Shown piece after piece: positions 7,529-64,000 of a DNA stretch of 64,000 bases. This DNA is from Pontibacter sp. Tf4 (GTDB lineage: Bacteria; Bacteroidota; Bacteroidia; Cytophagales; Hymenobacteraceae). Position 1 is the first letter of the stretch; every line of letters begins with the position of its first letter. The stretch covers positions 124,001 through 188,000 of the forward strand of contig NZ_JACKZC010000010.1 of assembly GCF_014212495.1 (NCBI RefSeq), given 5' to 3'. The position numbers were made by a program, and so were the translations under genes. A model generated the notes under the pieces. The model made no database searches. It saw nothing but the letters and a program-made list of their open reading frames with translations, and was not told the origin of the DNA.

Positions 7529-10500
7529 TTACTTCTCAATCAGCAGTTTGACGGTGCTATTCTCAGACTTACTTTCCAGCCTGATGAAGTACAGGCCTTT
7601 GGCAAGTCCGGTGCCGTTAATCATCACTGTCTGCTGCTCTCCTGCGTCGGCTTTTCCGGTTTTCAGTTCCCGAACCAGCACTCCCCTTTCATCATACAGG
7701 TTCAGTGTATAGTCACCTGCCTCAGCCAGGGTAAAGTTTACGGTACTGAAGTCAGCGGCCGGGTTAGGGTACACGGTTAACCCAGACTGTATTTCCACGT
7801 CAGTGGCCTGCAGCACCGACCTTGATGAGGAAGCATAGGACAGCTCCAGGATCGTGAACCAGTCTTTGCTTGTATAGCTGCCGGCCGGCGAAGTAACTTT
7901 AATTTTTACGTTAGCTGGCAATCTGCCCAGCACTTTAGGAACTATAGCTTCCAGGTTGCCTTTGCCATCGTGCGAGAAAGTCGCGCTGTTTGAGCCGAAG
8001 CTCACTTTGGTTACTGTCGTCAGGTTTGATCCGCTGATCAGTACTTTGGCACCTGCAGCTCCTCTGGTAGGGCTGAACTTTGTTATGACAGGTGCAGCGG
8101 TGGGTTTGGTAACGATAAAGCTGGTGCTGCTCACGGCTGTACCACCGGCGGCGCTGACACTTATTTTACCTGTAGTGGCTCCGGCCGGAACAGTGGCAAC
8201 TATATACGTAGGGCTTAATGCGGCATACACTGCTGCCACGTTATTGAAATACACTGCCTTCACGTCGTTAAAGTTACTTCCGTAGATAGATACCCGTTGA
8301 CCCACATTACCCATAGTTGGTGTAAACCTGGTAATAACAGGTTTTGCTATAGTAACAGGTCTGGTGACTTCTATAGTTACGTTTTGTGTGGCCTGCGCAA
8401 TGCCATCACTCACCTTGAAATTGATCTTATAGCTGCCAGCCTGGTCTGCTCCAGGTTTCCACTGGAATATCCCGGTTACTGCATTCAGCGTAGCACCTGC
8501 TGGCAGTTTATTGGCACTGTAGGTAAGTTTCTGTGCCGGCAGGTCCTTATCGCTTCCGGATAAGGTAAAGCTAAGTGTCTGGCCAACAACGACTTCTTTC
8601 GGACCGATGGCAGCCAGCAAAGGCGCCTGGTTAACCTCGCTCACCTGCACCTGAATGGTTTCTTCGTCTCTCAGGGCTCCGTCCGAAACGCTGATCGTGA
8701 ACGAAAACTTTCCAGGTCCGTGGGCTTCTGATGGCGTCCAGGTGAATACCCCGGTTGCAGGATCTATCTTCGCTTCCGGTACTGTTCCTTCCAACGCATA
8801 CGTGAGCTTGTCGGCTGGCAGGTCTGCATCGGTCGCAGTGGCTTTAAAGGTCAGCAAGTTGCCTTCCGGAGCCGTTTTGTTACCGATTGCAGCTAAAACC
8901 GGCGCCGTGTTCTGTTGGGTTACCGTTACTGTTATGCTTTCGGCATCTGTTAACGCACCATCCGACACTTTAACCGAGAAGGTGTAGCTGCCCGACTGAT
9001 CGGCGGCCGGAGCCCACGAGAAAGCACCCGTTGCACTGTTAATAGTTGCCCCAGCCGGCGCATTGACTAACGAATATACCAAGTTGTTGGCCGGAATATC
9101 CGCATCGGTCGCCCTGGCAGTAAAGGTCAGTGTGTTGGGTTTAACTACTGTTTTAGAACCTATAGCTGCCAGCACTGGTGCCACGTTCACCTCCTCCACT
9201 TTCAGTGTAAAGGATTTCGAATCTGTCAGCGCTCCGTCTGATACCTGCACTGTAAAATTGTAGGTATTGCCATTTCCCTGTGCTTCTGTCGGTGTCCAGC
9301 TGATCAGGCCTGAGGTAGCATTTATTATGGCACCCTCCGGCGCAGCTGTCAGGGAGAAAGTCAGGGTATTGGCCGGCTTGTCCGGGTCGGTGGCAGAAGC
9401 CTGCAAAGTGAAGGCGGTCAGTTCCTGCACTGCAGCCGGCACAGACGCTAAGGTTAACACTGGTGCCGAATTGCCTTCCGTTACGGTTACAGTGATCTCT
9501 TCCGAATCAGAAAGTATTGGCGTGCCGTTATCTGTTACTTTCACCGTAAAGGTGTGCGTGCCATTCTGCTCTTCTGTCGGTGTCCAGGCAAAGGCGCCGC
9601 TTTCAGGGTTGATTGCGGCACCGGTCGGCGCACCCACCAGACTATAGCTCAGTCGGTTGGCCGGCACATCCGCATCGGTGGCAGACGCTGTAAATGTAAG
9701 CACGCTTCCTTCTGCTACTGTTTTATTGTTGATAGCTGCTAAAACAGGAGCCCGGTTCACTTCAGTAACAGTTACCTTAACGATAGCTTCATCAGTTAAG
9801 CTTCCGTCCGATACTTTTACCTTGATACTGTGTTCTCCGTCCTGGTTTTCGGCAGGTGTCCAGGTGAAGGCGCCATTGGCTGTAATGGCTGCACCTGTTG
9901 GCGCATTCTCCAGCGTAAATATCAGGATATTACCTTCGTCCGCATCTGTAGCACTCGCCTGGAAACTAAGCTGGCTGCCTTCTGCTATCGTCTTATCGGC
10001 TATAGTTGCCAGCACTGGTGCCCGGTTAGCCGGTTTGCTGATGGTTAGCCTGAACTCATCGCTTGCAGATCCGCCTTTACCATCTGCTGCTGTAACGCTG
10101 ATGTCCAGGGCAGCAGGGCTGTCGGTTGGCGGCGTGCCGCTGAAGGCAGTTCCGGTAAAGCTTAACCAGGCAGGCAGCGCCTCGTTATTCGCCATTTTAG
10201 CGGTGTAAGTCAGGGCGTCCTTATCTGCATCCGAGAAAGTATTGTCCGGCAAACTATAGCTGAACTGAGTACCGATAACAGCCTGCTGGTCCGGGATAGG
10301 GTTGCTTACAACAGGAGCCGCGTTAACCGGAGGAGCTGCAGAAACCGATACTGCGACCAGCGCAGATGTTGTGCTACCGCCTGTTTTATCAGTGGCGATA
10401 GCTTTTAAACTATAAGTGCCTGCCCCTACACCTGTCCACGCATAAGACCAGGTCTTGTCTGCATTCAGGGTAGCATCTCCTATCTTCGTGGTGCCGTTAT

Positions 10501-13500
10501 AAAATTCTACCTTATCAATTTCACCGTCAGCATCTGTGGCCGAAGCTGTTATGGCTATAGTTGCCGGCGCTGTATAGGTTGCACCATCCGCGGGAGCCGT
10601 GATGCTTACTACTGGCAGTTTGTTCTCAGGCGCATTCACTGTGATACTCACCACTTCCGAAGTTGTAACTGCATCCTTGTTGTCGGTGGCTTTGGCAGTT
10701 AAACTATAGGTGCCCGTTGCCACGTTGTTCCAGGTGTAGGCCCATTTGCCATCAGCAAGTACGCCATCCCCTATTTTATTTTCACCACTATAGAATGCCA
10801 CTGATTTTACTTCGCCGTCAGCATCTGCAGCAGTGGCGGCTATAGTTACAGAAGCCGGCGCTGTGAAGGTGGCATTATTGGCCGGCGCTATAATAGCTAT
10901 AGTTGGTGCCGTATTGGCAGGAGTTGCTATGGTTGTATTAAACACCACATCTACCCAGTAATTGGATGCCTTGTAACTGTTTGTAGGGAATGCAGGGACG
11001 CCCGATACGGCATACACCCCGTTACCACCACTTTCAGCACTCGACAACACCCGCAGCGGATTACGGTCTATCGTGCGGCCAAAAGCTGAGTTGCTAGCTG
11101 AATAGGTACCGTTACTGCTGTGGTACGAGATGATATAGGTTGTGCCAGCTTTAACCTCAACCGGGGTAGTGAAGGCAGCTTCCTGCCAGCCTGTGGCTGT
11201 TTCGTTGGCAAACGTTACACCTGCCAGCAAGGCACCAGTGCTGCTATACAGTTGCCCCGTGTGTGTACCTGTGTTCTGACTATGTTTGTAAAACCGCACG
11301 CCGGTCACATAGCCGTCGACAGCCGACGTGAATTTCATACCCAACTGTATACCGCCGTTCTCTGTAAACAACGAATCGTTTGGTACATCGCCGGTATTGA
11401 AAACGGTGCACGGACATACAGCTTTTACTGTAACTATAGTTGCCTCCGAAACCGTGATCGCACCGGCATTATCTGTCGCTTTTGCTGTTAAACTATAGTT
11501 TCCGGCCGAAACGTTGCTCCAACTATAGTTCCAGCCATCTGTGCCATCAGTATCGGTGCCCAGGCTTTTGGTGCCGTTAAAGAACTCTACCTGTTGCACA
11601 GTTCCATCTGTATCCGTAGCATTGGCGGTGATGGCTATAGTGGCAGGTGCCTGAAGCTGCGTATTGTTGACCGGTGAGGTTATCGTTACTGCTGGCGGCG
11701 TGTTGCCTGCCGGGACTGTTGTGTTAAATACTACATCCACAAAATAGCTTGCTTCGTTAAAGCTCACGGTCGGGAAAGTGGCTGTGCTGGTGTATTTAAA
11801 CAGACCGTTACCCGCATCTGTTGTGCTGGCCGGCGCTATCAATGGAGTTCTGACTACATCTGTCACAAACGCATCTCCTTTTGCAGAATAATAACCTGCA
11901 CTACTAAAATAAGAGATCACATACACAGTGTTTGCCTTGATAGCTACCGGATTAGCAAAGGTAGCCTCCTGCCAGCCTGCTGCTGTTTCGTTCTGAAAGG
12001 TTACCTCGGCGAGTGCTGTACCTCCAGTGCTGTTATACAACTGGCCGATATGCGTACCGCTGTTACCTTCCTGCTTGTAGAACCGCACACCTGTTACGTA
12101 ACCATCCACGGTAGCTTTAAAGCGCATGCCCAATTGTATACCGTTTGCTCCTTCCGGATCTCGTTGTAAAACTAATGCCGGCGCATCGGTTGGCTGAAAA
12201 ATACTGCAAGGGCAGGCAATGGCTCCTGGTTCACCTATTGTTACCTGCAGGGTAACCGGCGCGCTCATGTTTCCTGAATCGTCGAAGGAGCGGCTTTGTA
12301 TAGTTGCCGGGCCCTGTGTAGTCGGTGTCCAGGCAAAAGTCCAGTTGGTTGTACCGGTCGCGGTTTTCCAGGTAGTACCGCCGTCTGTAGAGATTTCCAC
12401 ACCTGCTACCGTGGCAGCATCTGTAGCCGTACCACTCAGGATAACTTCTTTGCCGGCAGGCAGGGTAGCATTGTTTGCAGGACTGGTGAAGACGGTTATC
12501 GGTGCCTGGGTGTCGGTTGAAGCGGTGGCCGGAACCAGGCCAGACTGCAGGCTGGCTGGCTGCACGCCCATATCGGCAAACAGGTTAACAGTTGCCTGCT
12601 GCATATCCGGGCTGGCCGCTGCACTGCCACGGTCGTGGTTGCTATCCAGGCCCCAGGACCACTGCACGGTGCCTGCCCCGAAAACCCACGCGCCACTGCT
12701 GTGCCTGTAAAGCGACAGGTGATGTACTTTACCGTCAACTATAGTTTTGGAAAGTATAATTCTGCCCTTCGGATAGGTGGCCCGGTACTGTTCCTGTTCC
12801 GGGTTCCATTCGTACCCGATGGTGCCCTGGGTCAGGGTAGCAGACTGGCCGTTACCCAGCGAGGCTATCGATGTGTTGCGCCAGAAACGCAGGTTCTTAT
12901 AATCACTCGGCACCTGGATCGGAGCTGTATTTTCGGCCCAGCTTATCTGGCCGCTCAGCTCATTTTCAGGGTTACATGCCAGCGGGTCTCCGGCTTTGTA
13001 CTCGCATCCGGTACGCCATAATCCGGTCCATTCCGAGCTTGGGTCGCATTTACCGTTGCAGGTATTCTCGCCGGCTGCGCCCTCTTTGTAACACACCAGC
13101 GTACGATGCGATACACCGTTGCCGTCGATACTGTTCTCCCAGCGGGTTTTCCAGTATACTTCGTTGCCACTGAAGAAAGCGAGATTGGTGCCGGAATTAC
13201 GTGCATTTGTGACGTGCGTACGCTGTGCTCCGGACCAGTATTCGTCGTGGCCTACTGATAGAAAGACCCTGTGGTTGGCAATAAGATTTCCGCGTCGGTC
13301 GCTGTCTACGTTGGTAGTATAGGTAACATTATAGCCGTTTGCTTCCAGCCAGCGGATCATCGGATACTCGGCATTGAACAGCCAATCCTCTTCGGCGCCA
13401 CCGCCTCCCCCTCCATCACGGGTCACAAACGGACGGTTATAGCTCACTTTTACTGCTTTTCCGCCCGCACCGGTATACAGGCTTCGGCCGTTATTGTTAT

Positions 13501-16500
13501 CACCATACACATTATAGGCCTGCCAGGTAGCATCCGAGGTCTGGAAAAGCAGATCGGACGTACTCGCATCGTCTCTTACGATGAACACAATATGGCTCGA
13601 GCCACCACCAGTCTTAGTCAGTTTTGCAATATAAATCCCTGAAACAGCATCAGCAGGAATTGCCCAGCTGGCAGACTCGCTCCAGTTTCCGCAATCGAGC
13701 AGGCCGGTTGCGGAGTTAGTGATACAGGCTGGCTGCGTTTGCGGCAAGGTGGCAGTTACGGTAGCATTGCCCTTAAATCTGGCACCATTGCCCTGGTAAT
13801 AGCCAAGCCGGTAAATCTTTATTGTATAGGCGCTGGCATCTGTCTTGATCTTGAACCGCGCGGTCTCCCCCCGGTTATAGCTTATATCGGTGGCAAAACC
13901 CTGTATGGTCCGGTCACCGGCACCTGATATCTGCCACTCTGCTTCCGGATTACCAGGCAATTCATTCTCGGCTTTTATGCTGACCGGGCTGCCAGGTGTG
14001 GTTGTGCCGGTCACTTGTACGGTTACAGCATTGGAAGTAGTGGTTTTGTTGTCGCTGGTGATCGCCTTTGCTATTAGCTGATAAGTTCCTGTCATCACAT
14101 TGGTCCAGGTATAGGAATACGGGCTTTCAAGGTCCTCGCCAAGCAGAGTTGTACCATTGTAAAATTCTACCTTCGCTATTGTACCACCTGAAACAGCGGC
14201 ATTTGCAGCGATGGTTATAGTAGCCGGCGCTGTAAAAGAGGCATTAGCTGCCGGAGACGTGATGGCTATAGTTGGAGATGTGTTACCGGGCTCAGTCGTT
14301 GCGGTAGTGAAAACGGCATCTACCCAATAGTTAGCCTTTCTGCCAGCATTTACCGGCAAGGCTGGGCTTGCTGTATATAAATAAACGCCATTAGCGCCTT
14401 CTGCTCCATCTGCAAGTGCCAGTAAGGGTGTTTTGTCTACCTGGCTTGTAAAGTAGTCGTTCGTAGCCGAATAATATCCCGAGCCACTATGGTAAGAAAT
14501 AACATAAGTTGTGCCGGCTGTAACGGCTACAGGTTCAGCAAAACTGGCTTCCTGCCAACCGGACTCTGTTTCGTTTTTAAATTCTACTTGTGCCAGCCGG
14601 GTGCCGGTGCTGCTGTAAAGTTCGCCCGTATGGGTGCCTGTATTTCCGGCCTGTTTGTAAAAGCGAACGCCTGTTACAGACCCGTTTACAGTAGCCTTAA
14701 ATTTCATACCCAGTTGTATGCCGGTTGTGTTATCCCGGAAAAGCTGTGCTGTAGGTGCCGGACCTTCTGTAGAACTGAAAACGGTGCAGGGACAGGTGGC
14801 AGCTACCGTTATCGTTACCGGCTCCGAGGTGGTGACAGCGCCTTCGTTATCTGTAGCTTTGGCGGTTAAACTATAGGAACCTGCTGCCACATTGCTCCAG
14901 TTATAGGTGTAAGGAGCAGTCAGGGCTTCGCCTAAGCGCTGGGTGCCGTTAAAGAACTCTACTTTGGCAACAGAGCCTCCTGCATCAGACGCTTCGGCAG
15001 TAATGGTAACAGAAGCAGGAGCCTGCAGTTTGGTACCGCTTACCGGCGCTGTAATGGCAACACTTGGTGCCTGGTTTGGCAACGCATTCTTGTCATAGGT
15101 AGCTACATAGGTTCCTGAGTTGATGTTGAAAATGGCGTACTCTACGCCTTTTATAGTTTCTGTGCGGTAACCAACAGCAGCGCCATTGGTTGTCAGGCTG
15201 ACCAGTTTGCCGGTGCGCTCTGTCATGGGTAGCATGCCTTCAATATTCCGTGCGCCGCTGGCTATGCTGGCTGTAAAGTTCAGCGTATTTCCACTCCAGG
15301 TCATGCTATTGAAAGAAGAACCATTGCGACCCTCCAGCCAGGTAAGTAATTGCTTTGATGAAATTACCGGAACATTACGGGCTTTAGCGGCAGCAATGAT
15401 CGCATCCGAGCCTTCGGAAGTGATGTTGTCGGTGTGCATGTTTGCGCAGAAAGTGCCATAATAGCCGGGCGCACCAATTGCATTATCAAGCAGCTGTGAG
15501 ATATGTTTACTGTAGCTAATTCCGGATTCGTCGGTCATCTGGGTAGTTACCTGGTAACAGTTTATCGTTTGGCCGTTCATGCTGGCAAACCGCATCGGCA
15601 TACCAGACCCGGTAAACAATCCTGGTCTGTCCTGTAGCCAGGCTTCCGGCCAGTAATAGTAATTTGCGTCAAGCCGTATGTTATTATTTGCTTCAATCTT
15701 TGGTTGCGAATCCCAGTCGCTCCAGGCAATGCAGTGGGTGCGGTTAGTAGCCGGTGCTGCCAGGCTTGTATACTTTGCCTTGAAATCGCCTAACTGGTCT
15801 GCATAGAACTGGGTTAATGACGAGCTGGTATAGTTGCCGCAATTGGTGTTCAGGTGCAATGCAATTTCAAAACCCTGGTCTTCCAGCGCCTTGGCTTCCG
15901 CATTAGTTATAGGCGTACCCGGGTAAATATACGATGTACCCCTTATGGCTTTCCAGTCTGCTACCGCTTCTGTACTGTTATCATCGCTTAGCTTCAGGTA
16001 TTGTTCAAAGCGGCCTTTAGTGCCTCCGTTTCCGTGGTCGTCCCCTGTCATCACTACAGCAGCTTTCAGGCCTCTTGGCAGGTACCAAAAACGGGGCAAG
16101 GGCTTTTCAGAATTCTGCAGGATGATATTGGCGAGCAAACGCTGCTGCTCATCAGCCTGCGGAATGGCTACTTTATTCAGGTCTACCCAATCCGGGTAAA
16201 ACAGATCGTTGGCACGTATCGGTCCTGACTGGCCATCCCGTTCCTGCCCTGCCCACTCCGGATTTCCCTGGCGTAAATACACCACAGACTTAGCCAGGTC
16301 ATACGTAAAGGCCACGGCTTTCCCTCCTAAAGTGCCTACAGAATGCGTGGTTACGGCCGGATAGTTGGTGGAAGTAGAAGCCCCGGAATATAAGGTTGCG
16401 ATAGCTGTCGCGCCGTTTAAGGTGTACAGATCGGAGGAGCCTTTGTACTGGATAGTCTGATTGACGATACCTTTACCAGGACCAGAAGAAGTATTTACCA

Positions 16501-17089
16501 GTAAGTAACTGTTAGCCATGGTGCCCCCGTTCGGACTAAGTCCTAAAAGCGGTGCCAGTTTTGCATCGGGGCTCAATGCAACCAGCGTGCCACCTTCATT
16601 GGTCCAGTTGGTCAGTACGTTCACCTGCGCATCAGGTAAGGCAATATCTCCAACTATAACAGCCTCATAGTTGGCAAGCAGATCAGCGGTAACTTCTGAA
16701 ATATCTGCAACCCTGAACCCGTTAAAACCTTCTGCTGTCAGGATCTCAGCGGTATACTGGCTAAACGGGTTGGCAGCTGATGTTACCAGCAGGATCGAGC
16801 CATCGGCAACGGCGGCCGGAGCAGCTGCACTGGCTACATCCGCTGTTATAAACGCCGAAAGGTTAGGACGAACCTTGCTATTTTCAGGGGCAACATGCCC
16901 TTTTCCTGGTAGTGCTGCTTGTTTTTGTTTACCAGGTGTAACAGTTGGTATAATCAGTTCAGCGAGCACAGCCGCCCTCGGGATCAGTAACTGTAACTGG
17001 GCAAATGTGCCGTAAAACAGGAACAGTAAAGGAATCAGCGTTAAAAGAATCCGTTTCCAGGAAGATGTTAAAGTAATTTTCGTGTACAT
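7529..17089 (-). CDS. Giant multidomain T9SS surface protein (DMFase-like, DUF4082 x3, Ig/cadherin-like, IPT/TIG)
   Basis: 3186 residues in one open frame. In order (approximate residues): signal/hydrophobic segment 14-31; alpha/beta ThuA-like domain 90-330; polysaccharide-deacetylase-like segment with GDDHGNGG near 348 and EIALHLNTNCGNY near 408; Ig-like 670-757; DUF4082 765-930; Ig 933-1027; region like the N,N-dimethylformamidase large subunit 1033-1515 (LSVGHDEYWSGAQR, FFSGNEVYWKTRW); Ig 1530-1616; DUF4082 1626-1790; Ig 1796-1888; DUF4082 1890-2055; two Ig; one dystroglycan/cadherin-like and six cadherin-like (APVLAAIGxKT) repeats 2260-2910; two IPT/TIG 2915-3085; T9SS sorting domain 3105-3186. 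Inference: a surface-displayed hydrolase or adhesin acting on polymer. Catalysis is not shown. At least 19 CTATAG palindromes lie inside the frame. Confidence 0.85.
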   Translation of the reverse strand: MYTKITLTSSWKRILLTLIPLLFLFYGTFAQLQLLIPRAAVLAELIIPTVTPGKQKQAALPGKGHVAPENSKVRPNLSAFITADVASAAAPAAVADGSILLVTSAANPFSQYTAEILTAEGFNGFRVADISEVTADLLANYEAVIVGDIALPDAQVNVLTNWTNEGGTLVALSPDAKLAPLLGLSPNGGTMANSYLLVNTSSGPGKGIVNQTIQYKGSSDLYTLNGATAIATLYSGASTSTNYPAVTTHSVGTLGGKAVAFTYDLAKSVVYLRQGNPEWAGQERDGQSGPIRANDLFYPDWVDLNKVAIPQADEQQRLLANIILQNSEKPLPRFWYLPRGLKAAVVMTGDDHGNGGTKGRFEQYLKLSDDNSTEAVADWKAIRGTSYIYPGTPITNAEAKALEDQGFEIALHLNTNCGNYTSSSLTQFYADQLGDFKAKYTSLAAPATNRTHCIAWSDWDSQPKIEANNNIRLDANYYYWPEAWLQDRPGLFTGSGMPMRFASMNGQTINCYQVTTQMTDESGISYSKHISQLLDNAIGAPGYYGTFCANMHTDNITSEGSDAIIAAAKARNVPVISSKQLLTWLEGRNGSSFNSMTWSGNTLNFTASIASGARNIEGMLPMTERTGKLVSLTTNGAAVGYRTETIKGVEYAIFNINSGTYVATYDKNALPNQAPSVAITAPVSGTKLQAPASVTITAEASDAGGSVAKVEFFNGTQRLGEALTAPYTYNWSNVAAGSYSLTAKATDNEGAVTTSEPVTITVAATCPCTVFSSTEGPAPTAQLFRDNTTGIQLGMKFKATVNGSVTGVRFYKQAGNTGTHTGELYSSTGTRLAQVEFKNETESGWQEASFAEPVAVTAGTTYVISYHSGSGYYSATNDYFTSQVDKTPLLALADGAEGANGVYLYTASPALPVNAGRKANYWVDAVFTTATTEPGNTSPTIAITSPAANASFTAPATITIAANAAVSGGTIAKVEFYNGTTLLGEDLESPYSYTWTNVMTGTYQLIAKAITSDNKTTTSNAVTVQVTGTTTPGSPVSIKAENELPGNPEAEWQISGAGDRTIQGFATDISYNRGETARFKIKTDASAYTIKIYRLGYYQGNGARFKGNATVTATLPQTQPACITNSATGLLDCGNWSESASWAIPADAVSGIYIAKLTKTGGGSSHIVFIVRDDASTSDLLFQTSDATWQAYNVYGDNNNGRSLYTGAGGKAVKVSYNRPFVTRDGGGGGGAEEDWLFNAEYPMIRWLEANGYNVTYTTNVDSDRRGNLIANHRVFLSVGHDEYWSGAQRTHVTNARNSGTNLAFFSGNEVYWKTRWENSIDGNGVSHRTLVCYKEGAAGENTCNGKCDPSSEWTGLWRTGCEYKAGDPLACNPENELSGQISWAENTAPIQVPSDYKNLRFWRNTSIASLGNGQSATLTQGTIGYEWNPEQEQYRATYPKGRIILSKTIVDGKVHHLSLYRHSSGAWVFGAGTVQWSWGLDSNHDRGSAAASPDMQQATVNLFADMGVQPASLQSGLVPATASTDTQAPITVFTSPANNATLPAGKEVILSGTATDAATVAGVEISTDGGTTWKTATGTTNWTFAWTPTTQGPATIQSRSFDDSGNMSAPVTLQVTIGEPGAIACPCSIFQPTDAPALVLQRDPEGANGIQLGMRFKATVDGYVTGVRFYKQEGNSGTHIGQLYNSTGGTALAEVTFQNETAAGWQEATFANPVAIKANTVYVISYFSSAGYYSAKGDAFVTDVVRTPLIAPASTTDAGNGLFKYTSTATFPTVSFNEASYFVDVVFNTTVPAGNTPPAVTITSPVNNTQLQAPATIAITANATDTDGTVQQVEFFNGTKSLGTDTDGTDGWNYSWSNVSAGNYSLTAKATDNAGAITVSEATIVTVKAVCPCTVFNTGDVPNDSLFTENGGIQLGMKFTSAVDGYVTGVRFYKHSQNTGTHTGQLYSSTGALLAGVTFANETATGWQEAAFTTPVEVKAGTTYIISYHSSNGTYSASNSAFGRTIDRNPLRVLSSAESGGNGVYAVSGVPAFPTNSYKASNYWVDVVFNTTIATPANTAPTIAIIAPANNATFTAPASVTIAATAADADGEVKSVAFYSGENKIGDGVLADGKWAYTWNNVATGTYSLTAKATDNKDAVTTSEVVSITVNAPENKLPVVSITAPADGATYTAPATIAITASATDADGEIDKVEFYNGTTKIGDATLNADKTWSYAWTGVGAGTYSLKAIATDKTGGSTTSALVAVSVSAAPPVNAAPVVSNPIPDQQAVIGTQFSYSLPDNTFSDADKDALTYTAKMANNEALPAWLSFTGTAFSGTPPTDSPAALDISVTAADGKGGSASDEFRLTISKPANRAPVLATIADKTIAEGSQLSFQASATDADEGNILIFTLENAPTGAAITANGAFTWTPAENQDGEHSIKVKVSDGSLTDEAIVKVTVTEVNRAPVLAAINNKTVAEGSVLTFTASATDADVPANRLSYSLVGAPTGAAINPESGAFAWTPTEEQNGTHTFTVKVTDNGTPILSDSEEITVTVTEGNSAPVLTLASVPAAVQELTAFTLQASATDPDKPANTLTFSLTAAPEGAIINATSGLISWTPTEAQGNGNTYNFTVQVSDGALTDSKSFTLKVEEVNVAPVLAAIGSKTVVKPNTLTFTARATDADIPANNLVYSLVNAPAGATINSATGAFSWAPAADQSGSYTFSVKVSDGALTDAESITVTVTQQNTAPVLAAIGNKTAPEGNLLTFKATATDADLPADKLTYALEGTVPEAKIDPATGVFTWTPSEAHGPGKFSFTISVSDGALRDEETIQVQVSEVNQAPLLAAIGPKEVVVGQTLSFTLSGSDKDLPAQKLTYSANKLPAGATLNAVTGIFQWKPGADQAGSYKINFKVSDGIAQATQNVTIEVTRPVTIAKPVITRFTPTMGNVGQRVSIYGSNFNDVKAVYFNNVAAVYAALSPTYIVATVPAGATTGKISVSAAGGTAVSSTSFIVTKPTAAPVITKFSPTRGAAGAKVLISGSNLTTVTKVSFGSNSATFSHDGKGNLEAIVPKVLGRLPANVKIKVTSPAGSYTSKDWFTILELSYASSSRSVLQATDVEIQSGLTVYPNPAADFSTVNFTLAEAGDYTLNLYDERGVLVRELKTGKADAGEQQTVMINGTGLAKGLYFIRLESKSENSTVKLLIEK

Positions 17090-36311: not shown

Positions 36312-39300
36312 TTACACCTGCGCCGCAACAGTCCGCTGGTTGTACTCTTCTTCGGAAAGGGCAAAGGCAGGGTCTACGAGCAGTACTTCCTGGTAGGTCA
36401 GGTTATACAAACGGTACACCAGCACATCTATCTCCGCCTCCAGCCCCGACGTATCGGCAGCCGCATCGGCCTGTTTTATAGTTAAGATCTGCTCTACCAG
36501 CGAGGTTATAGTTGCGGTAACTTCATTGTCTACATTTGGTACAGCAAACTGAAGAATATCCCTAATCATTATCTGTGGGAAAGTATCTTCATTACTGATT
36601 TGGAATTTCTTTCTGAAATACCAGCCAATGAAGTTTGAATTGATAATACCCAATAATGGCTTATACTTTATTTCAGCCTTATCTGGAATTAACTTTAGCA
36701 CAAACAGAAGTGTGTTGCAATAAGAAGTATAAGGTATATAGTTTGCAATTAAAGTTCTGCCAACAATTTTCCTTATCAATATTTTTTCATCTTCGAATTT
36801 TTCAGGAACTCTTGGTTCAGCCAACCAAGGTCCATAGTTTAACCAATTGTTTTCTTTCCAATTAAGAATGTATTTACCAACATCCTTACCATCAAAGAAT
36901 GGCTTCCATACTTCATTTATCTGATTAGACGAAGTGAAAGGTTTACTGTCCCTAATTTCTGCTGTCTGCGCAGGCTTACCTTTTCCAACTTGGTATACTT
37001 TTATACCATAAAACATTGTAGTGAATTCTTCTAATTTGGTAAATTCAGAATCAACTTTGTTAATGATACTGAGATCTTCAGAATTACTCTGAACATTGAA
37101 TGCCTTCTGCTCAAACCACAAAGCTGTAGAAGCAATAAACTTGTTCTCAGGCATGTCTATAGTTGTAATCAGATCTTTTTTATTGAAAGTCTTAACTGTT
37201 ACCTGAGCTTCATTATAGTTTTCAGATTCTGTAGTTTTCCTAAAAAATAACAAAATCGTATCAACCGTAGCTTCATCAAAAATTTTGGAAGGCAATAAAA
37301 CCACTTCTTCCAAAATTGTAGCCTTTAATATAAGTTCTCTAATAGCCTGTGTAAATCCTAAATTGAGAATAGTATCAGGAATTATAAAACCGAACTCACC
37401 CTGCTGCTTTAAGATATTGATGGCCTTCTCGATAAATAGAGCATAGCTCTCGCCACGTAAAGCAAAAGAAGTATATGATTTCTTGTAAAGATTACTCTCA
37501 CTTTCTGTAAAACTCACACCATACGGCGGGTTTCCGATCACCACGTCAAAGCCTTTATAGTTGCCGGCTTCGTCGAGCACTTCCGGAAACTCGAACCGCC
37601 ACTCAAAAGCGCCTTCATATAGTTTGTTGGCTTCAATGTCGGCCCGCTCCTGCTCCAGTTTCTGTAGCTGGGCCTGTAGTTTCTGCAGCTGTTTTTTGTC
37701 TACTTTTTTAGCGCCAAACAGGTCGGGGTCCTGCATTACGGCAATGGCGCCGCGCAGTTTGGCCATGTCGCGTCGCAGGGGGTCGTTGTTGGCCAGCGTG
37801 GTTCTAAAGCCCTGCTTTATCTCGTCCAGGAAAGCGACAAGCTGCTTTTTAACCTCTTTGGAGTTGGTGTGCTTATAGTTGGCAACAGCGGTGCGGTAAG
37901 CCTGCAAACTATGGCCTTTCTTGCCAAAGGCCTCGTGCAGGTCGGCGGTAAGCGGGTAGCGGCTCAGCAGCGAGTTGCCCTGCTTTATGTTTATATCAAT
38001 GTTGGGCAGCGTCTGCAGCTGCGAAAATTTGTCGGAACCTTTAAGAGGGCTCTTACCCGCAGTATTTAAGGATGAACTGGATCTTTCATCAGTAAACCCA
38101 TCGCGCAGCCCTGCAGCGTTGGCATAACATACCGGCGAACTATAGTTGTCTGCATCAGCTTGCATATCCTGCTCCTGGCAGTAGTAGGCGTTCTTCAGCA
38201 GTTCTATCCAGAGGCGCAGGCGGCAAATCTTTACCGAGTTGGGGTTTATATCCACGCCAAACAAACAGTTCTCGATAATGGTCTGCTTCTCATGGAAAAG
38301 CGCTTCCTGCAGCTCCTGCACCTGCGGGTTAATGGTGCGGTGGCCGTCGGGGTGCTGGTGCACCACATAACTGAACAGCTCGCCATGGTGGTCGGTCACG
38401 ATCAGCTCGTCGTTCTGCACCTCAATGCTGCCGTAATGCAGCGGTTTGCCCTGGCGGTTCAGCAGCAGGCGCAGCTCGGCTTTTATAACGATAAGCTCGT
38501 TCAGGGCGCTTACCAGGTAGTGCCCCGAGCCCACGGCCGGGTCGCAGATGCGCAGGCTGTTTATGAGCTGGTTGTACTCCTTCAGGTGCTCTATACTATA
38601 GTTTCTGCTGATGTGCAGCTGCAGCGCTTCAAAGGCCTGGTCGGTTGAACTATAGCCTGCCTGCTCCGCCCCTGTTTTTGTGATCCCAGCTGGACCTGAA
38701 CCGAGCACCCAGCCATATTTCTCTGAAAAGCGCTGCACAACGGCCCGCCGGATGGCTTCGCGGCTCATGTACATGGTTATAAAACCGGGCGTGTAAAAAG
38801 AGCCGTCGCGGTAGCCGTTTATCTTTTCAAAAATAAGTCCCAGTACCGATGCCGTTATCAGCGTTTTGTTTTCTTCCTGTATCTCCTCCTTGCCCTCGGC
38901 GCCGAAGTCGTAGCTGCCCAAAAAGCGCAGCAAATACTCCAGGGTGCGCATGTCGGGCTGGGTTTTGCCAAGGGGTTTGCCGGTTTCGTCGCGCAGCACG
39001 GTTTTGGGGTACAGCGGCAGGCGGCTGGTGTCTTTCAGGTTAGAGATGCGCAGCGTGCGTTTCTCCAGGGCTGTGGTCTCGAACAACGACGAGTTGAGGT
39101 ACGGGATGTGGCCGTATTTCTGGCGCACGTTTTCGGAGCGGAGATGCGGGCGCTCGGCCAGCACATCAAAAAAGAGCTCGTTCAGGTCATCAAACTCCAC
39201 CAGCTTTTCGGGACGCATAAACACGTAGGCCTTGTCGCCGTGGTGGTAACTGGCCAGTTGCGCCTCCAGCAGCTTCAGGAACAGGATGCGGTTCATCCAG

Positions 39301-40271
39301 GTAATGCACAGCTCCAGGGCCACGTTAAACAATTGCTCTTCGCGGGTGCTGCCGTAACTATAGGCATTGTCCAGCCCGCTGATCAGGTCTTCGGATTTCA
39401 GTTTCTGGTACGCCGCCTCCAGCAACGAGCCACTGTCGGGTTTTGCTTTGCGCTGTATCAGTTTGCGGCCTCCCTCCTTCACTTCCTCCAGGCCAATCAG
39501 GTGCAGCAGTTCCAGGTAAAAGCCGGGGTCCAGGGAGTTGGCATCGTTGGCAAAAGGCTCTTTCAGCAAATGCGCCGGCGACAGCAGTTTGTAGAGCTGC
39601 ACCAGTTTCACATCGTCTTTCAGGTCCTGGTTGCGCAGCGGCTTTTCGTATTCTTTTAAGTTGAAGTAGGTGTAAACTATAGTTCCGTCGGCGAGGCCGG
39701 CAATAAAAGGCGCTACAATTTCCTTGTAAAAAAACTCGGTGCTGTTCCCCGATTTCTTGCCCTGGCTCCAGTCGGTAAAGTCTTTGCGCAGCTGGCCGTT
39801 GCGGTAAAACAGGCGGTCAAATTCCAGGGCATCAAACACAAACCACTCGTGCACGCTGGTAATGATGAGCTGTTTCAGGTCGTTGTTCTTGTGCTCTATC
39901 CGTTCGCGCAGGTAATACAGCACCAGCTCGTGCATGGCCTTGTAGTTCAGGCTGTCGGCAGTGGGCATGTCGGCTTTGTTGGTTGGCCGTTTTACCTCCA
40001 GCAGCACGCCGGCGGGGCTTTTGGTATCGGTGCCGGTATGTATCACCAGGTCAGTCTTGCCTTTGGTGTTCAGGCCATAGCGGTCGTAAAAGGTCGCCTT
40101 CAGGAAATCGCGCAGGTGGTTCTTTACATGCTCTTCGCTCTCGTTCAGGTCGATGCTGTCGAGCAGGGTACGCAGCGCATTTTTAAAGCCCTCGATGTGG
40201 GTGCGGGTGGTTTTGCTGCGCAGGTAAGCCTTGTTCAGCGCCTGTTTCGGCCGAAGGATCGTTTGTTGCAT
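36312..40271 (-). CDS. Type IIG restriction-modification enzyme (Eco57I/class I MTase fusion)
   Basis: 1319 residues from the ATG at 40271 (a TTG 15 codons earlier is less likely). A PD-(D/E)xK nuclease motif sits at the N-terminus: D74 (KTDLVIH) and EVK 92-94 (GVLLEVKRP). The N6-adenine methyltransferase motif I DPAVGSGHYL is near 575 and motif IV NPPY near 912, with a coiled insertion between. The C-terminal 400 residues hold the TaqI-C-like target recognition region. One polypeptide thus cuts and modifies, as in type IIG/IIS enzymes. Bases 36540-37510 (end of MTase plus specificity region) are clearly more AT-rich than the rest, suggesting exchange of the specificity part. Recognition sequence unknown. 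Confidence 0.88.
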   Translation of the reverse strand: MQQTILRPKQALNKAYLRSKTTRTHIEGFKNALRTLLDSIDLNESEEHVKNHLRDFLKATFYDRYGLNTKGKTDLVIHTGTDTKSPAGVLLEVKRPTNKADMPTADSLNYKAMHELVLYYLRERIEHKNNDLKQLIITSVHEWFVFDALEFDRLFYRNGQLRKDFTDWSQGKKSGNSTEFFYKEIVAPFIAGLADGTIVYTYFNLKEYEKPLRNQDLKDDVKLVQLYKLLSPAHLLKEPFANDANSLDPGFYLELLHLIGLEEVKEGGRKLIQRKAKPDSGSLLEAAYQKLKSEDLISGLDNAYSYGSTREEQLFNVALELCITWMNRILFLKLLEAQLASYHHGDKAYVFMRPEKLVEFDDLNELFFDVLAERPHLRSENVRQKYGHIPYLNSSLFETTALEKRTLRISNLKDTSRLPLYPKTVLRDETGKPLGKTQPDMRTLEYLLRFLGSYDFGAEGKEEIQEENKTLITASVLGLIFEKINGYRDGSFYTPGFITMYMSREAIRRAVVQRFSEKYGWVLGSGPAGITKTGAEQAGYSSTDQAFEALQLHISRNYSIEHLKEYNQLINSLRICDPAVGSGHYLVSALNELIVIKAELRLLLNRQGKPLHYGSIEVQNDELIVTDHHGELFSYVVHQHPDGHRTINPQVQELQEALFHEKQTIIENCLFGVDINPNSVKICRLRLWIELLKNAYYCQEQDMQADADNYSSPVCYANAAGLRDGFTDERSSSSLNTAGKSPLKGSDKFSQLQTLPNIDINIKQGNSLLSRYPLTADLHEAFGKKGHSLQAYRTAVANYKHTNSKEVKKQLVAFLDEIKQGFRTTLANNDPLRRDMAKLRGAIAVMQDPDLFGAKKVDKKQLQKLQAQLQKLEQERADIEANKLYEGAFEWRFEFPEVLDEAGNYKGFDVVIGNPPYGVSFTESESNLYKKSYTSFALRGESYALFIEKAINILKQQGEFGFIIPDTILNLGFTQAIRELILKATILEEVVLLPSKIFDEATVDTILLFFRKTTESENYNEAQVTVKTFNKKDLITTIDMPENKFIASTALWFEQKAFNVQSNSEDLSIINKVDSEFTKLEEFTTMFYGIKVYQVGKGKPAQTAEIRDSKPFTSSNQINEVWKPFFDGKDVGKYILNWKENNWLNYGPWLAEPRVPEKFEDEKILIRKIVGRTLIANYIPYTSYCNTLLFVLKLIPDKAEIKYKPLLGIINSNFIGWYFRKKFQISNEDTFPQIMIRDILQFAVPNVDNEVTATITSLVEQILTIKQADAAADTSGLEAEIDVLVYRLYNLTYQEVLLVDPAFALSEEEYNQRTVAAQV

Positions 40272-40393
40272 GGCGTGGTTTGTTTTCTTAGGCAAAATAG
40301 GGAAATTAATTTTCAATTATGAATTAAGAAGTTAGAAGTTAGAAGTTAGAAGTTAGAAGTTAGAAAGTTGGGAAGCTGCTATAGTTTGGGAGT

Positions 40394-41380: not shown

Positions 41381-41893
41381 TTAAATGGCTTTCTGCTCCA
41401 GGTAGGCAGACGTGAACGGGTGTTCGGTGGCGACGCCTTCTTTGAGAATGTGCATCACCTGCCAGCCGCGCTCTTTCAGGTAATCGGAGATGATGGCCCG
41501 GTGACAGCGCCACCATACGGCTTCGGAGCACATGTAGGCAGTATGCTTTTGAGTGGCAAGATTGGTCAGGTTGGCGATGGCTGCTTCAAATTCTTTGGTC
41601 TCGGCATAATCGGCATAGCCCCGGAACGACTCGCTGCGCCAGACGGTGTTCGTGGAATCGGGACGGGGTTTGCGACGGCCACCTAAGTCGGTCATGGGTT
41701 GGTAGGCAATGCCGGCGGCGGGCAGAAATTCCTGCAGCGCCTCTACGTTAAAATGCGGATATTTCCTGGAACCCGGGTAACGGCGCACATCCACCAGTAC
41801 TTCTATTTCGAAGGAGTTAAGGGCTGCTACAACTTCGTCGGTGGTACGGGTAGAGTGCCCGAAGGTCCAGATCGTGGGAATGTTCTCTTGCAT
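41381..41893 (-). CDS. DUF488 domain protein
   Basis: 170 residues from the ATG at 41893. IWTFGHSTRTTDEVVAALN opens the domain, VLVDVRRYPGSRKYPHFN follows, then LGGRRKPRPDS and the cysteine/arginine motif YMCSEAVWWRCHRAIISDYL; these are DUF488 hallmarks. The function is unproven; a nucleic-acid or small-molecule enzyme is suspected. The DUF2945 gene is 24 bp upstream on the same strand, and the two form a likely operon. Confidence 0.92.
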   Translation of the reverse strand: MQENIPTIWTFGHSTRTTDEVVAALNSFEIEVLVDVRRYPGSRKYPHFNVEALQEFLPAAGIAYQPMTDLGGRRKPRPDSTNTVWRSESFRGYADYAETKEFEAAIANLTNLATQKHTAYMCSEAVWWRCHRAIISDYLKERGWQVMHILKEGVATEHPFTSAYLEQKAI

Positions 41894-41917
41894 GGCGGTA
41901 TCGGGGTGTGCGGCCAA

Positions 41918-42127
41918 CTATAGTTTGGTGAGCGCAGAGCCTTTGTGGGCAGCAATGTGGTCTGTTTTATCGCTTTTTATTTCGTATTGCGGCTCGTCTT
42001 TGCTGGCATGGTGCGTGTAACCTTTATAGTCGAAATCGGTGGTATGCACTTTTACAATGGTGCCGGTAACGTGGCCGGCTTCGGAGTTCCAGCGCACATG
42101 GTCGCCTTTCTTAAACTGCTGTTTCAT
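41918..42127 (-). CDS. DUF2945 (HVA1 family, TUDOR-like) small protein
   Basis: 69 residues. FKKGDHVRWNSEAGHVTGTIVKVHT with YKGYTHHASKDEPQYEIKSDKTDHIAAHKGSALTKL is the complete DUF2945 small barrel. Related to hypervirulence-associated and TUDOR-like domains; the role is unknown. First gene of a pair with DUF488. Confidence 0.92.
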   Translation of the reverse strand: MKQQFKKGDHVRWNSEAGHVTGTIVKVHTTDFDYKGYTHHASKDEPQYEIKSDKTDHIAAHKGSALTKL

Positions 42128-42359: not shown

Positions 42360-43160
42360 ATGAACAGACTCTTACCCACCAATGCCGCCCTGCAGCTGCT
42401 GCGCTACCTCAGCCAACAGCTCGGGCAGTTAGAATACGATGCCGAAAAGCACCGCCTGCTGCTGCCCCACGAAGCCGGTGATGCCACGCTTTACTTCCGG
42501 TTACCGCTAACTATAGCATCGCCCGTGCAGGGAAAGTTTGCTATGCAGCAGCCAGTAAACTATATCATCCTGCTCATACAATCGGGTAACTGTGCGCTGG
42601 GTTATTTCGAGAACGGCCGCAACCTGAACCACAAAGTATTCCGCTCGTACATGGTGCGCAAAAAGCAGGGCAAAAGCCAGGTAAAGTATCTCAAAACCAA
42701 AGGAAAGTCGCGCGCCGGTTCGCGTGTTCGTTTAGGTGAAACACTGGAGTTTTTCGAGAACATAAACGGCCGCCTGCAGGAGTATTTTGAACACCATACC
42801 ATCGACCGCATTGCTATCAGCTGCTCTAAAACACTCCTGCCTTACCTGTACAGTTCCAAAACCGAAACACCTTTCACCAAATCAGACCCGCGCCTGCTGA
42901 AGATACCACGCCACGTGCATACCCCCATCTACGAGGTGCTGCTCGATACCAACCGTTACCTGCTGCGCGGCGAACTGGTGTTCGACGAACAGGGCCGGGA
43001 ACGCGCCACCCAACTGCTGGAAGCAGCCGGCATTACTGGTTTACAACACACCCCGGAAGAAGATTCTGACAGCTGGGAGGAAGACCAAGAAGATGAGAGC
43101 GCGGACGAGGATGTTTTTTATGATGAAGAAGATGAGGAAGAGGATGAAATGGAGTGGTAA
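42360..43160 (+). CDS. Predicted Vms1/ANKZF1-like release factor (VLRF1 family)
   Basis: 266 residues, cytoplasmic. FRSYMVRKKQGKSQVKY (95-110) followed by KSRAGSRVRLGETLEFFENI (116-135) matches the core of the VLRF1 domain, whose eukaryotic members (Vms1, ANKZF1) cleave peptidyl-tRNA on stalled 60S subunits. Q107 in GKSQ stands where the catalytic glutamine of Vms1 is. A central strand-helix follows (IDRIAISCSKTLLPYLY), and residues 230-266 are an almost pure Asp/Glu tail. No zinc finger or ankyrin repeats. Expected role: release of nascent chains from stalled ribosomes; inferred from motif similarity. Alone in its transcription unit. Confidence 0.72.
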   Translation: MNRLLPTNAALQLLRYLSQQLGQLEYDAEKHRLLLPHEAGDATLYFRLPLTIASPVQGKFAMQQPVNYIILLIQSGNCALGYFENGRNLNHKVFRSYMVRKKQGKSQVKYLKTKGKSRAGSRVRLGETLEFFENINGRLQEYFEHHTIDRIAISCSKTLLPYLYSSKTETPFTKSDPRLLKIPRHVHTPIYEVLLDTNRYLLRGELVFDEQGRERATQLLEAAGITGLQHTPEEDSDSWEEDQEDESADEDVFYDEEDEEEDEMEW

Positions 43161-62426: not shown

Positions 62427-64000
62427 TTACCTGGTTACGGTTCGCTCTATTTCACGCAGGTTCTCCATCTTTTTGTTGCGCAGGAAACCGTTGATATCCT
62501 CGAAGTGTTCGCGGATGCGCTTGTTGCCAAACTCAAACACCTTGGTAGCCAGGCCATCCAGAAAATCTCGGTCATGCGATACCAGTATCAGCGTTCCATC
62601 AAACGCTTTCAGGGCGTCTTTCAGGATATCTTTGGTATTAATATCGAGGTGGTTGGTTGGTTCGTCCAGTATGAGCAGGTTAACCGGTTGCAGCAACAGC
62701 TTTATCATTGCCAATCGCGTCTTCTCCCCTCCCGATAGTACTTTTACTTTCTTCTCGATCGTATCGCCACTGAACATGAAAGCGCCCAGCAGGTCTTTTA
62801 CACGCGTGCGCGCATCACCCACAGCAATCTCATCTATCGTCTGGAAAACGGTCAGGCTCTCATCCAGCAACGATGCTTGGTTCTGGGCAAAATACCCGAT
62901 CATGCAGTTATGGCCCAGTTGCAGGTTTCCTTCAAAATCGATCTCCCCCATAATGGCTTTCACCAGCGTGGATTTACCTTCGCCGTTTTTGCCTACAAAA
63001 GCAATCTTCTCGCCCCGGTTAATCGTCAGAGATGCATCTTTAAAAACCGTATAGTCACCATATTTTTTGGTCAGGCCTTCAGCAATTACCGGGTAATTAC
63101 CGGAGCGCGGCGCCGGCGGGAATTTCAGGTTCAGTGCCGAAGTATCTACTTCATCCACTTCCACCAGTTCCATCTTCTCCAGCATCTTCACCCTGGACTG
63201 TACCTGCAGCGTTTTAGAGTAAGTGCCTTTAAAGCGCTCGATAAAGGCCGTAATTTCCGCAATCTCTTTCTGTTGGTCGTCGTACTGTTTCTGCTGCTGC
63301 TCGCGTCGTTCTTTGCGTAACTGTAAATACTGGCTATAGTTTACCTTGTAGTCGTAGATACGGCCCATGGTAACTTCTATAGTTCGGTTGGTAATGTTGT
63401 CTACAAAGGTCTTGTCGTGCGAGATCACGATCACCGCCTTCGCGTTGTTCACCAGGAAATCCTCCAGCCACTGTATCGATTCAATATCCAGGTGGTTGGT
63501 CGGCTCATCCAGCAGGATCAGGTCCGGTTTCTGCAGCAGTATCTTTGCCAGCTCAATACGCATTCGCCAGCCCCCACTAAACTCATTGGTCGACCGGTTA
63601 AAATCTTCACGGCTAAAGCCAAGGCCTTTAAGTGTTTTCTCAACTTCGGCGTCGTAGTTAATCTCTTCAATCGAGTAGTACTTCTCCCCCAGTTCCGACA
63701 CCTGCTCAATCAGCTTATAGTAGTCATCCGAGTCGTAATCGGTACGGGTTTCCAGCTGACGGTTCAACTCATCCATCTGCGCCTTCATCTCCAGCACTTT
63801 CCCAAACGCTTTGGAAGCTTCCTCAAAAACGGTGCAGTTGTCTTCTGTAAGCAAATGCTGTGGCAGGTAGGCAATCACCGCATCCTTCGGCGCCGAGATC
63901 TTACCACGAGTAGGTTTCCCCACCCCTGCAATAATTTTAAGCAGTGTCGATTTACCGGCACCGTTCTTCCCCATCAGGGCAATCCGGTCGTTTTCGTTGA
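62427..64000 (-). CDS. ABC-F family ATPase (5' end outside window)
   Basis: About 520 residues visible, cut at the window end before the first Walker A motif (GKNGAGKST). First ABC signature FSGGWRMRIELAKIL, second Walker A GKNGEGKST, second signature LSGGEKTRLAMIKLLL, and two DEPTNHLD Walker B motifs; the linker and C-terminal helices follow. No membrane segments. This is the tandem-ABC layout of ABC-F proteins, which bind the ribosome and help with stalled translation or antibiotic resistance. Closest group cannot be told from this part. Confidence 0.93.
   Translation of the reverse strand, partial: NENDRIALMGKNGAGKSTLLKIIAGVGKPTRGKISAPKDAVIAYLPQHLLTEDNCTVFEEASKAFGKVLEMKAQMDELNRQLETRTDYDSDDYYKLIEQVSELGEKYYSIEEINYDAEVEKTLKGLGFSREDFNRSTNEFSGGWRMRIELAKILLQKPDLILLDEPTNHLDIESIQWLEDFLVNNAKAVIVISHDKTFVDNITNRTIEVTMGRIYDYKVNYSQYLQLRKERREQQQKQYDDQQKEIAEITAFIERFKGTYSKTLQVQSRVKMLEKMELVEVDEVDTSALNLKFPPAPRSGNYPVIAEGLTKKYGDYTVFKDASLTINRGEKIAFVGKNGEGKSTLVKAIMGEIDFEGNLQLGHNCMIGYFAQNQASLLDESLTVFQTIDEIAVGDARTRVKDLLGAFMFSGDTIEKKVKVLSGGEKTRLAMIKLLLQPVNLLILDEPTNHLDINTKDILKDALKAFDGTLILVSHDRDFLDGLATKVFEFGNKRIREHFEDINGFLRNKKMENLREIERTVTR

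Follow-up and report, generated by a model that had tools for sequence, protein, structure and literature searches.

The closest described relatives of the protein considered here form the VLRF1 clade, whose bacterial family was first named bVLRF-1 by Burroughs and Aravind in 2019; the passages of that paper (PMC6514570) that deal with the clade also place acVLRF1 and aVLRF-1 in it and give them the catalytic glutamine. Vms1/ANKZF1 (eVLRF-1) has in common with bVLRF1 a release-factor domain with a KQG(G/K)SQ loop and an N-terminal extension, whereas its zinc finger and ankyrin repeats are absent from bVLRF1. According to part of PMC5989216, release by Vms1 is strongly impaired in the mutants Q295L and G292A and when S294 is deleted, and R288A and G292A/G293A give no release. 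More distantly, the middle domain of eRF1/aRF1 shares the RNase H fold with a glutamine loop (Z about 11), but the stop-codon and Pelota domains of these factors are absent from bVLRF1. For bacteria, the relevant section of a 2021 review (PMC8012679) calls the release step of ribosome-associated quality control (RQC) unknown, and a passage of PMC11317155 reports Pth as the RQC release factor of B. subtilis; Pth, for which the same job is thus proposed, belongs to an unrelated protein family and is also encoded in the genome studied here. No experiment on a bacterial VLRF1 was found among the papers listed from the open-licence literature of PubMed Central, where the portion of PMC10934728 that carries the bVLRF1 domain name gives it as an entry in a soybean table.

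The gene examined here lies at 42360-43160 on the forward strand of the window, by which we mean the whole 64,000-nucleotide stretch of Pontibacter sp. Tf4 DNA that was analysed; the window belongs to contig C2, and the genome measures 4.45 Mb. It runs from an ATG to a stop codon included in these coordinates and encodes 266 amino acids, and a search of the genome with the protein returns the protein itself alone. Against Pfam-A it matches PF18826 (bVLRF1) with E 1.3e-28 and 100.2 bits, for a cut-off of 27, and this is the sole Pfam family matched up to E 10; NCBIfam holds no model that matches it. Among PDB sequences Vms1 came top even with a single-sequence query (E 0.0089), and a profile of 71 aligned sequences reached yeast Vms1 at E 2.7e-9, with three Vms1 sequences at about 3e-9 and, apart from these, no match up to E 10. 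The first-pass annotation had called the protein a VLRF1 homologue, and these matches, together with the top rank of Vms1 in the fold search, confirm it as a member of the known family bVLRF-1/PF18826. Each of the 71 aligned sequences, window protein included, matches PF18826 individually, and cross-matches at a limit of E 0.1 are weak, namely to baeRF_family10 in 20 (best E 2.5e-5) and, as the one sign of likeness to acVLRF1, to that family in 12 (best E 0.0044). A P. burrus protein with 71% identity is among the nearest named relatives, all within Pontibacter. Domain, catalytic loop, phylum and the compact standalone gene are those of bVLRF-1, and no difference removes the protein from that family; what is new is the co-occurrence test described below and a recurrent acidic C-terminus with a terminal tryptophan.

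The protein begins with a fast-evolving N-terminal extension (residues 1-64; 42360-42551, forward strand, as are all parts of the gene), followed by a release-factor domain of RNase H fold (residues 65-210; 42552-42989) that is supported by AlphaFold2, Foldseek and nonsynonymous divergence. Within this domain lie the catalytic loop VRKKQGKSQ (residues 99-107; 42654-42680), the last residue of which is Q107, and a basic segment, KGKSRAGSRVRL (residues 114-125; 42699-42734), defined by conservation across the 71 sequences and by a helix in the AlphaFold2 model. The two stretches that had been singled out before, VRKKQGKSQ and KSRAGSRVRLGETL, are found at residues 99-107, as claimed, and 116-129. 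The protein ends in an acidic tail (residues 230-266; 43047-43157) that finishes in EMEW and is marked by low model confidence and by the tryptophan count given below. With just two cysteines, C78 and C155, it has no zinc finger, as the first-pass annotation had stated.

The AlphaFold2 model has a mean pLDDT of 85.2 and a pTM of 0.80 for the whole protein, with lower confidence around the catalytic loop (blocks of 71 and 63) and, from residue 231, values of 49-55 per block in the acidic tail. Foldseek ranks yeast Vms1 first (6r84_R, E 4.1e-6). Structural alignment of the predicted model with VIA-align gave Z 11.5 for Vms1 (6r86_R; rmsd 4.5, 169 residues aligned, spanning residues 5-209) and Z 11.6 for eRF1 (9i2d_CR; 128 aligned, residues about 64-202 only), so that the Z scores tie and coverage of the model differs. 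Since the Vms1 alignment starts at residue 5 and those of eRF1 structures at residues 62-65, the N-terminal extension goes with Vms1, which is where a passage of PMC6514570 had put the extension of the bVLRF-1 family from sequence. The basic segment leads into a long predicted helix (residues 119-145) and is expected to face rRNA.

In the profile alignment KQGKSQ falls on KQGGSQ of Vms1, which places the glutamine in the catalytic position as had been proposed. R100, G104, S106 and Q107 are thereby equivalent to Vms1 R288, G292, S294 and Q295, and K105 replaces G293 (Vms1 numbering as in the part of PMC5989216 that describes these residues). R100, G104 and Q107 are invariant in the 71 aligned sequences, of which the other 70 are 32-70% identical to the window protein, S106 is kept in at least 90% of them, and G115, K116, S117, G120, S121, R122, R124 and L125 of the basic segment and helix are likewise invariant. 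In a wider set of 133 distinct sequences, the window's own included, all 133 have glutamine at position 107, so that its conservation among close homologues held on checking; in 131 it was established by pattern and in the remaining two (L207, L208) by reading, and five sequences missed by a pattern and recovered by coordinates also carry it. Some of these loci come from a genome-contig scan with motif patterns that omit Q107 itself, which leans towards close relatives, and the rest from profile searches. The 131 pattern sequences divide into 104 with QGKSQ, 12 with QGKAQ, six with QGTSQ, three with QGKFQ and six singletons; position 105 is K, T, V or R among relatives and the second glycine of GGSQ is not kept. 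The lysine in place of G293 is a real departure from Vms1 and counts against reading the protein as a release factor.

Divergence was estimated between the window gene and eight Pontibacter relatives, comparisons in which dS is often saturated. In the six of eight with computable dS, the dN of the release-factor domain (residues 65-210) was 0.11-0.15 against a dS of 1.1-1.7, a difference large enough to indicate purifying selection on the gene. Of the regions compared, the loop region (residues 97-128) has the lowest dN, at 0.014-0.063, and the first 64 residues and the tail have 0.46-0.66 and 0.41-0.87.

The acidic tail is 37 residues long, as had been described, with 23 Asp/Glu. Such a long acidic tail is, within bVLRF-1, best developed in the window's own family and in Pontibacter above all. 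Over the last 20 residues the net charge averages about -10 in family f1 and between +2 and -5 in other families. Of the 133 distinct sequences, 66 have a tryptophan among their three final residues, where composition alone would predict 2.5%, although these tails are related and the count is not one of independent events. By family it occurs in 36/62 sequences of f1, 20/36 of f2 and unassigned relatives taken together, 8/8 of f44, 2/11 of f55 and 0/16 of the rest. The recurrence of this tryptophan in at least four families suggests, from sequence, a docking tip that has been kept or regained, and our guess is that the acidic tail is a lineage-specific element for docking or self-shielding. 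Self-stalling of the tail during its own translation was also considered, as a possible form of regulation.

The distribution of bVLRF1 is patchy. In samples that each include the window's own genome, it was found in 4/247 genomes of the phylum (an even draw), 8/295 of the class, 47/194 of the order and 74/150 of the family, where four of six sampled genera have it and two are without. The 74 comprise 49 genomes of the window's own genus, with one match per genome, and 25 of three other genera; among the misses listed, two fall in these carrier genera (87% and 78% complete), the 87% one in the window's own genus, and 56 further misses lie beyond that list. Of 209 relatives from the genome-contig scan, 80 were kept as named loci, and their names read as Bacteroidota. 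A tree of 68 sequences, from which close copies and named loci without a family label were excluded, sorts 11 family groups with 10 label changes, the minimum possible and what mostly vertical inheritance would give; the members of f1, of f2 and of f55 do not form one clade each (2, 3 and 2 changes). No relative was found in the viral contigs, plasmids and phages searched, nor a match in the PADLOC defence set, and on these absences a phage, plasmid or defence origin was rejected.

The first-pass annotation had raised the question of partner rescue factors, and RqcH, tmRNA, ArfB and also Pth are present in the same genome. The RqcH homologue is a 531-residue frame (L191:1250-2842, contig C23) with NFACT_N at 96.4 bits and NFACT-R_1 at 67.6 bits, unlinked to bVLRF1 on C2. 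It has an N-E-R triplet, which we take to be the tRNA-binding DR motif, and the arginine of this triplet is invariant in 22/22 aligned sequences of the order. Three frames with an RF-1 domain (342, 363 and 134 aa) were found, of which the shortest is ArfB (NF006718, 130.5 bits, cut-off 100) and the other two are taken, by size, as RF1 and RF2. A full-length tmRNA match scores 110.8 bits (gathering score 47). Across relatives tmRNA is above cut-off in 25/25 genomes tested, the same model having been positive, at a looser E limit, in 14/14 control genomes as well, archaea included, so that above-cut-off matches alone were used; Pth is present in 28/28. PF00472 gives three matches in 37 of 38 genomes of the family and two in G252. 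Compensation by other rescue factors within the family was not seen in these surveys of PF00472, tmRNA and Pth, the other carriers having a third, shorter RF-1-domain frame just as non-carriers do. The carrier genus g123 (G247, G252) has no RF-1-domain frame of ArfB size in either genome and may lack ArfB; the third PF00472 frame of G247, at 208 aa, is perhaps PrfH.

Co-occurrence with RqcH was examined at several depths. In the phylum sample NFACT_N is found in all four bVLRF1 carriers, but also in 190 of the 247 genomes overall. In the order sample it is present in 42/47 carriers against 105/147 non-carriers (p = 0.011), three of the 147 NFACT_N matches in carriers and non-carriers together lying below the curated cut-off. 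This raw excess is due to reduced genomes (<2 Mb), for among genomes of at least 2 Mb RqcH occurs in 42/47 carriers and 103/117 non-carriers (p = 1.0; one of the 194, which could not be matched to a genome, is counted as at least 2 Mb and without either gene). An order-specific RqcH profile, which recovered both of two positive controls, was run on 46 of the 47 RqcH-negative genomes and yielded one new fragment, in a non-carrier. Outside the order, where the 78 class genomes tested are the four carriers and 74 others drawn from the class sample by order of label, RqcH is found in 3/4 carriers against 10/74 non-carriers (p = 0.014), the three RqcH-bearing carriers being one family and thus one event. 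RqcH itself is general in the order (147/194) but present in 13 of the 78 other class genomes, and for the FCB group a passage of PMC11633108 gives rqcH in 404 of the 1,956 genomes surveyed. The RqcH match of one bVLRF1 carrier (G249:C1:3409794-3410429) holds two internal TAA stops, which may point to decay of rqcH or to a match-extension artefact.

Carriers without RqcH include near-complete genomes (G497 and G553, 99%; G593, 100%) as well as less complete ones (G517, 95%; G528, 86%; G543, 79%), and in the other direction genus g2, which belongs to the window's family, has RqcH in 12/12 order-sample genomes and bVLRF1 in none. There is therefore no obligate coupling, in agreement with the part of PMC6514570 that bears on this, where the VLRF-1 proteins of bacteria are said to occur irrespective of the other RQC components. 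Dependence on RqcH as a rule was rejected on the near-complete carriers that lack it and on the missing excess at 2 Mb and above.

On this evidence we consider it probable that the gene encodes a catalytically competent bVLRF1 that would act in the 50S A site by Q107-dependent release and would serve RQC without depending on RqcH. Once a stalled ribosome had been split, the protein would enter the A site of the 50S subunit still holding peptidyl-tRNA, the basic segment after the loop would grip 23S rRNA, the loop would reach the peptidyl transferase centre, and Q107 would promote release of the nascent chain. Lacking zinc finger and ankyrin repeats, and with no room for most other parts of Vms1, the protein is probably recruited by the 50S-peptidyl-tRNA itself. 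Such complexes are expected in this genome since it encodes an RqcH homologue with NFACT_N and NFACT-R, and bVLRF1 would serve RQC wherever RqcH is present, as here. The retention of Vms1 on the 60S subunit in the absence of Rqc2, reported in a section of PMC5989216, fits the existence of bVLRF1 carriers without RqcH. The most likely function is accordingly worded as nascent-chain release from 50S-peptidyl-tRNA with or without RqcH, and the protein is probably a real and active rescue factor. Against a release role in RQC stand the patchy distribution and the lack of association with RqcH at 2 Mb and above, as well as the presence of Pth in 28/28 genomes, with which a second release factor is not obviously needed.

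The residues on which the release reading depends are also those on which its nearest rival would depend. Passages of PMC11317155 and PMC12868832 describe Vms1/ANKZF1 as an endonuclease that cuts tRNA at its CCA end, and, the loop residues being common to both proteins, bVLRF1 might cut there and not at the ester, leaving a tRNA in need of 3' end repair. The relevant part of PMC5989216, however, reads the same Vms1 residues as hydrolysing the peptidyl-tRNA ester, and we hold cutting of the tRNA to be somewhat doubtful; site and substrate are those of the release reading and only the bond is another, so that the confidences placed in the two overlap. A general rescue factor working on the whole 70S ribosome with an empty A site, as a backup to tmRNA and ArfB unrelated to RQC, would account for G497, G553 and G593, the near-complete carriers without RqcH, and single-component use was also considered by Burroughs and Aravind in a passage of PMC6514570. 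Since the stop-codon and mRNA-channel domains are absent, the release-factor domain and N-terminal extension are common to Vms1, which works on the 60S subunit, and tmRNA and ArfB are already in the genome, this seems unlikely. We think it very improbable that bVLRF1 resembles Balon, or the baeRF proteins without glutamine, in being a non-catalytic A-site binder or hibernation factor. According to the portion of PMC6514570 that describes the baeRF families, the glutamine is missing from most of them and their loop varies in length, whereas here glutamine is found in 133/133 sequences and the loop has the lowest dN of the regions compared; nor was there a hibernation-factor gene among the eight neighbour clusters examined. 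The fold searches do turn up Balon structures (8v9l_z, E 1.8e-4, Foldseek; 8rdv_B, Z 9.9, VIA-align), and 20 of the 71 sequences show a weak match to baeRF_family10 (best E 2.5e-5), a family that keeps the glutamine in the same source's account.

The reading of bVLRF1 as a Q107-dependent release factor can be taken further, although with somewhat less than even confidence. It is possible that bVLRF1 is the dedicated 50S-peptidyl-tRNA release factor of Cytophagales and a few other Bacteroidia, acting at the peptidyl transferase centre, as opposed to Pth, which would act from outside, with or without RqcH, and that it represents a minimal, ancestral state of Vms1 whose tryptophan-ended C-terminus docks a partner. 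In Cytophagales bVLRF1 is in any case a candidate for the release step, as a compact Vms1 core without the eukaryotic additions; it opens a new lineage to tests of the release step in bacterial RQC, and such tests could show how 50S complexes are cleared in bacteria and what the core of Vms1 does by itself.

Genomic context was compared over 123 loci of 3.4-18 kb each, in which open reading frames were called and clustered by a custom script. No neighbour cluster occurs in more than 25 of them, the bVLRF1 gene being standalone, and no operon or partner was identified by neighbourhood in these loci. The commonest neighbour is present in 25/123 loci, next to an alcohol dehydrogenase present in 23, and the eight recurrent clusters examined follow lineages. 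In the window, a DUF488 protein and a small Hva1_TUDOR protein are the divergent upstream neighbours (41381-42127, reverse strand), and both are absent from the recurrent clusters listed for the 123 loci. At the window end an ABC-F ATPase of a ribosomal-protection-like group (62427-63974, reverse strand; NCBIfam NF000355, 429.6 bits, cut-off 380) lies 19 kb from bVLRF1 with nothing to link the two, in line with the earlier remark that it shows no positional link; as its frame reaches the end of the window, the protein is probably truncated at the N-terminus. A passage of the review PMC8012679 names the ABC-F protein Arb1 as a possible helper of Vms1.

Other features of the window include a type IIG-like restriction enzyme-methyltransferase of 1334 aa (36312-40316, reverse strand; DUF7149, DUF7814, Eco57I and TaqI_C), the gene of which is two kilobases from bVLRF1, and a 3186-aa protein (7529-17089, reverse strand) with an N,N-dimethylformamidase-like C-terminal domain, three DUF4082 stretches, many Ig/cadherin domains and a type IX secretion sorting tail. 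The octamer AACTATAG, the core of the palindrome AACTATAGTT, occurs 161 times in the window (1-64000) against 1.7 expected. Loci of P. burrus, P. populi and P. fetidus carry it at 2.0-2.2 per kb, near the window density, and the other 35 Pontibacter loci at 0-0.3 per kb, which gives it the look of a highly iterated palindrome that has recently been amplified in one Pontibacter clade.
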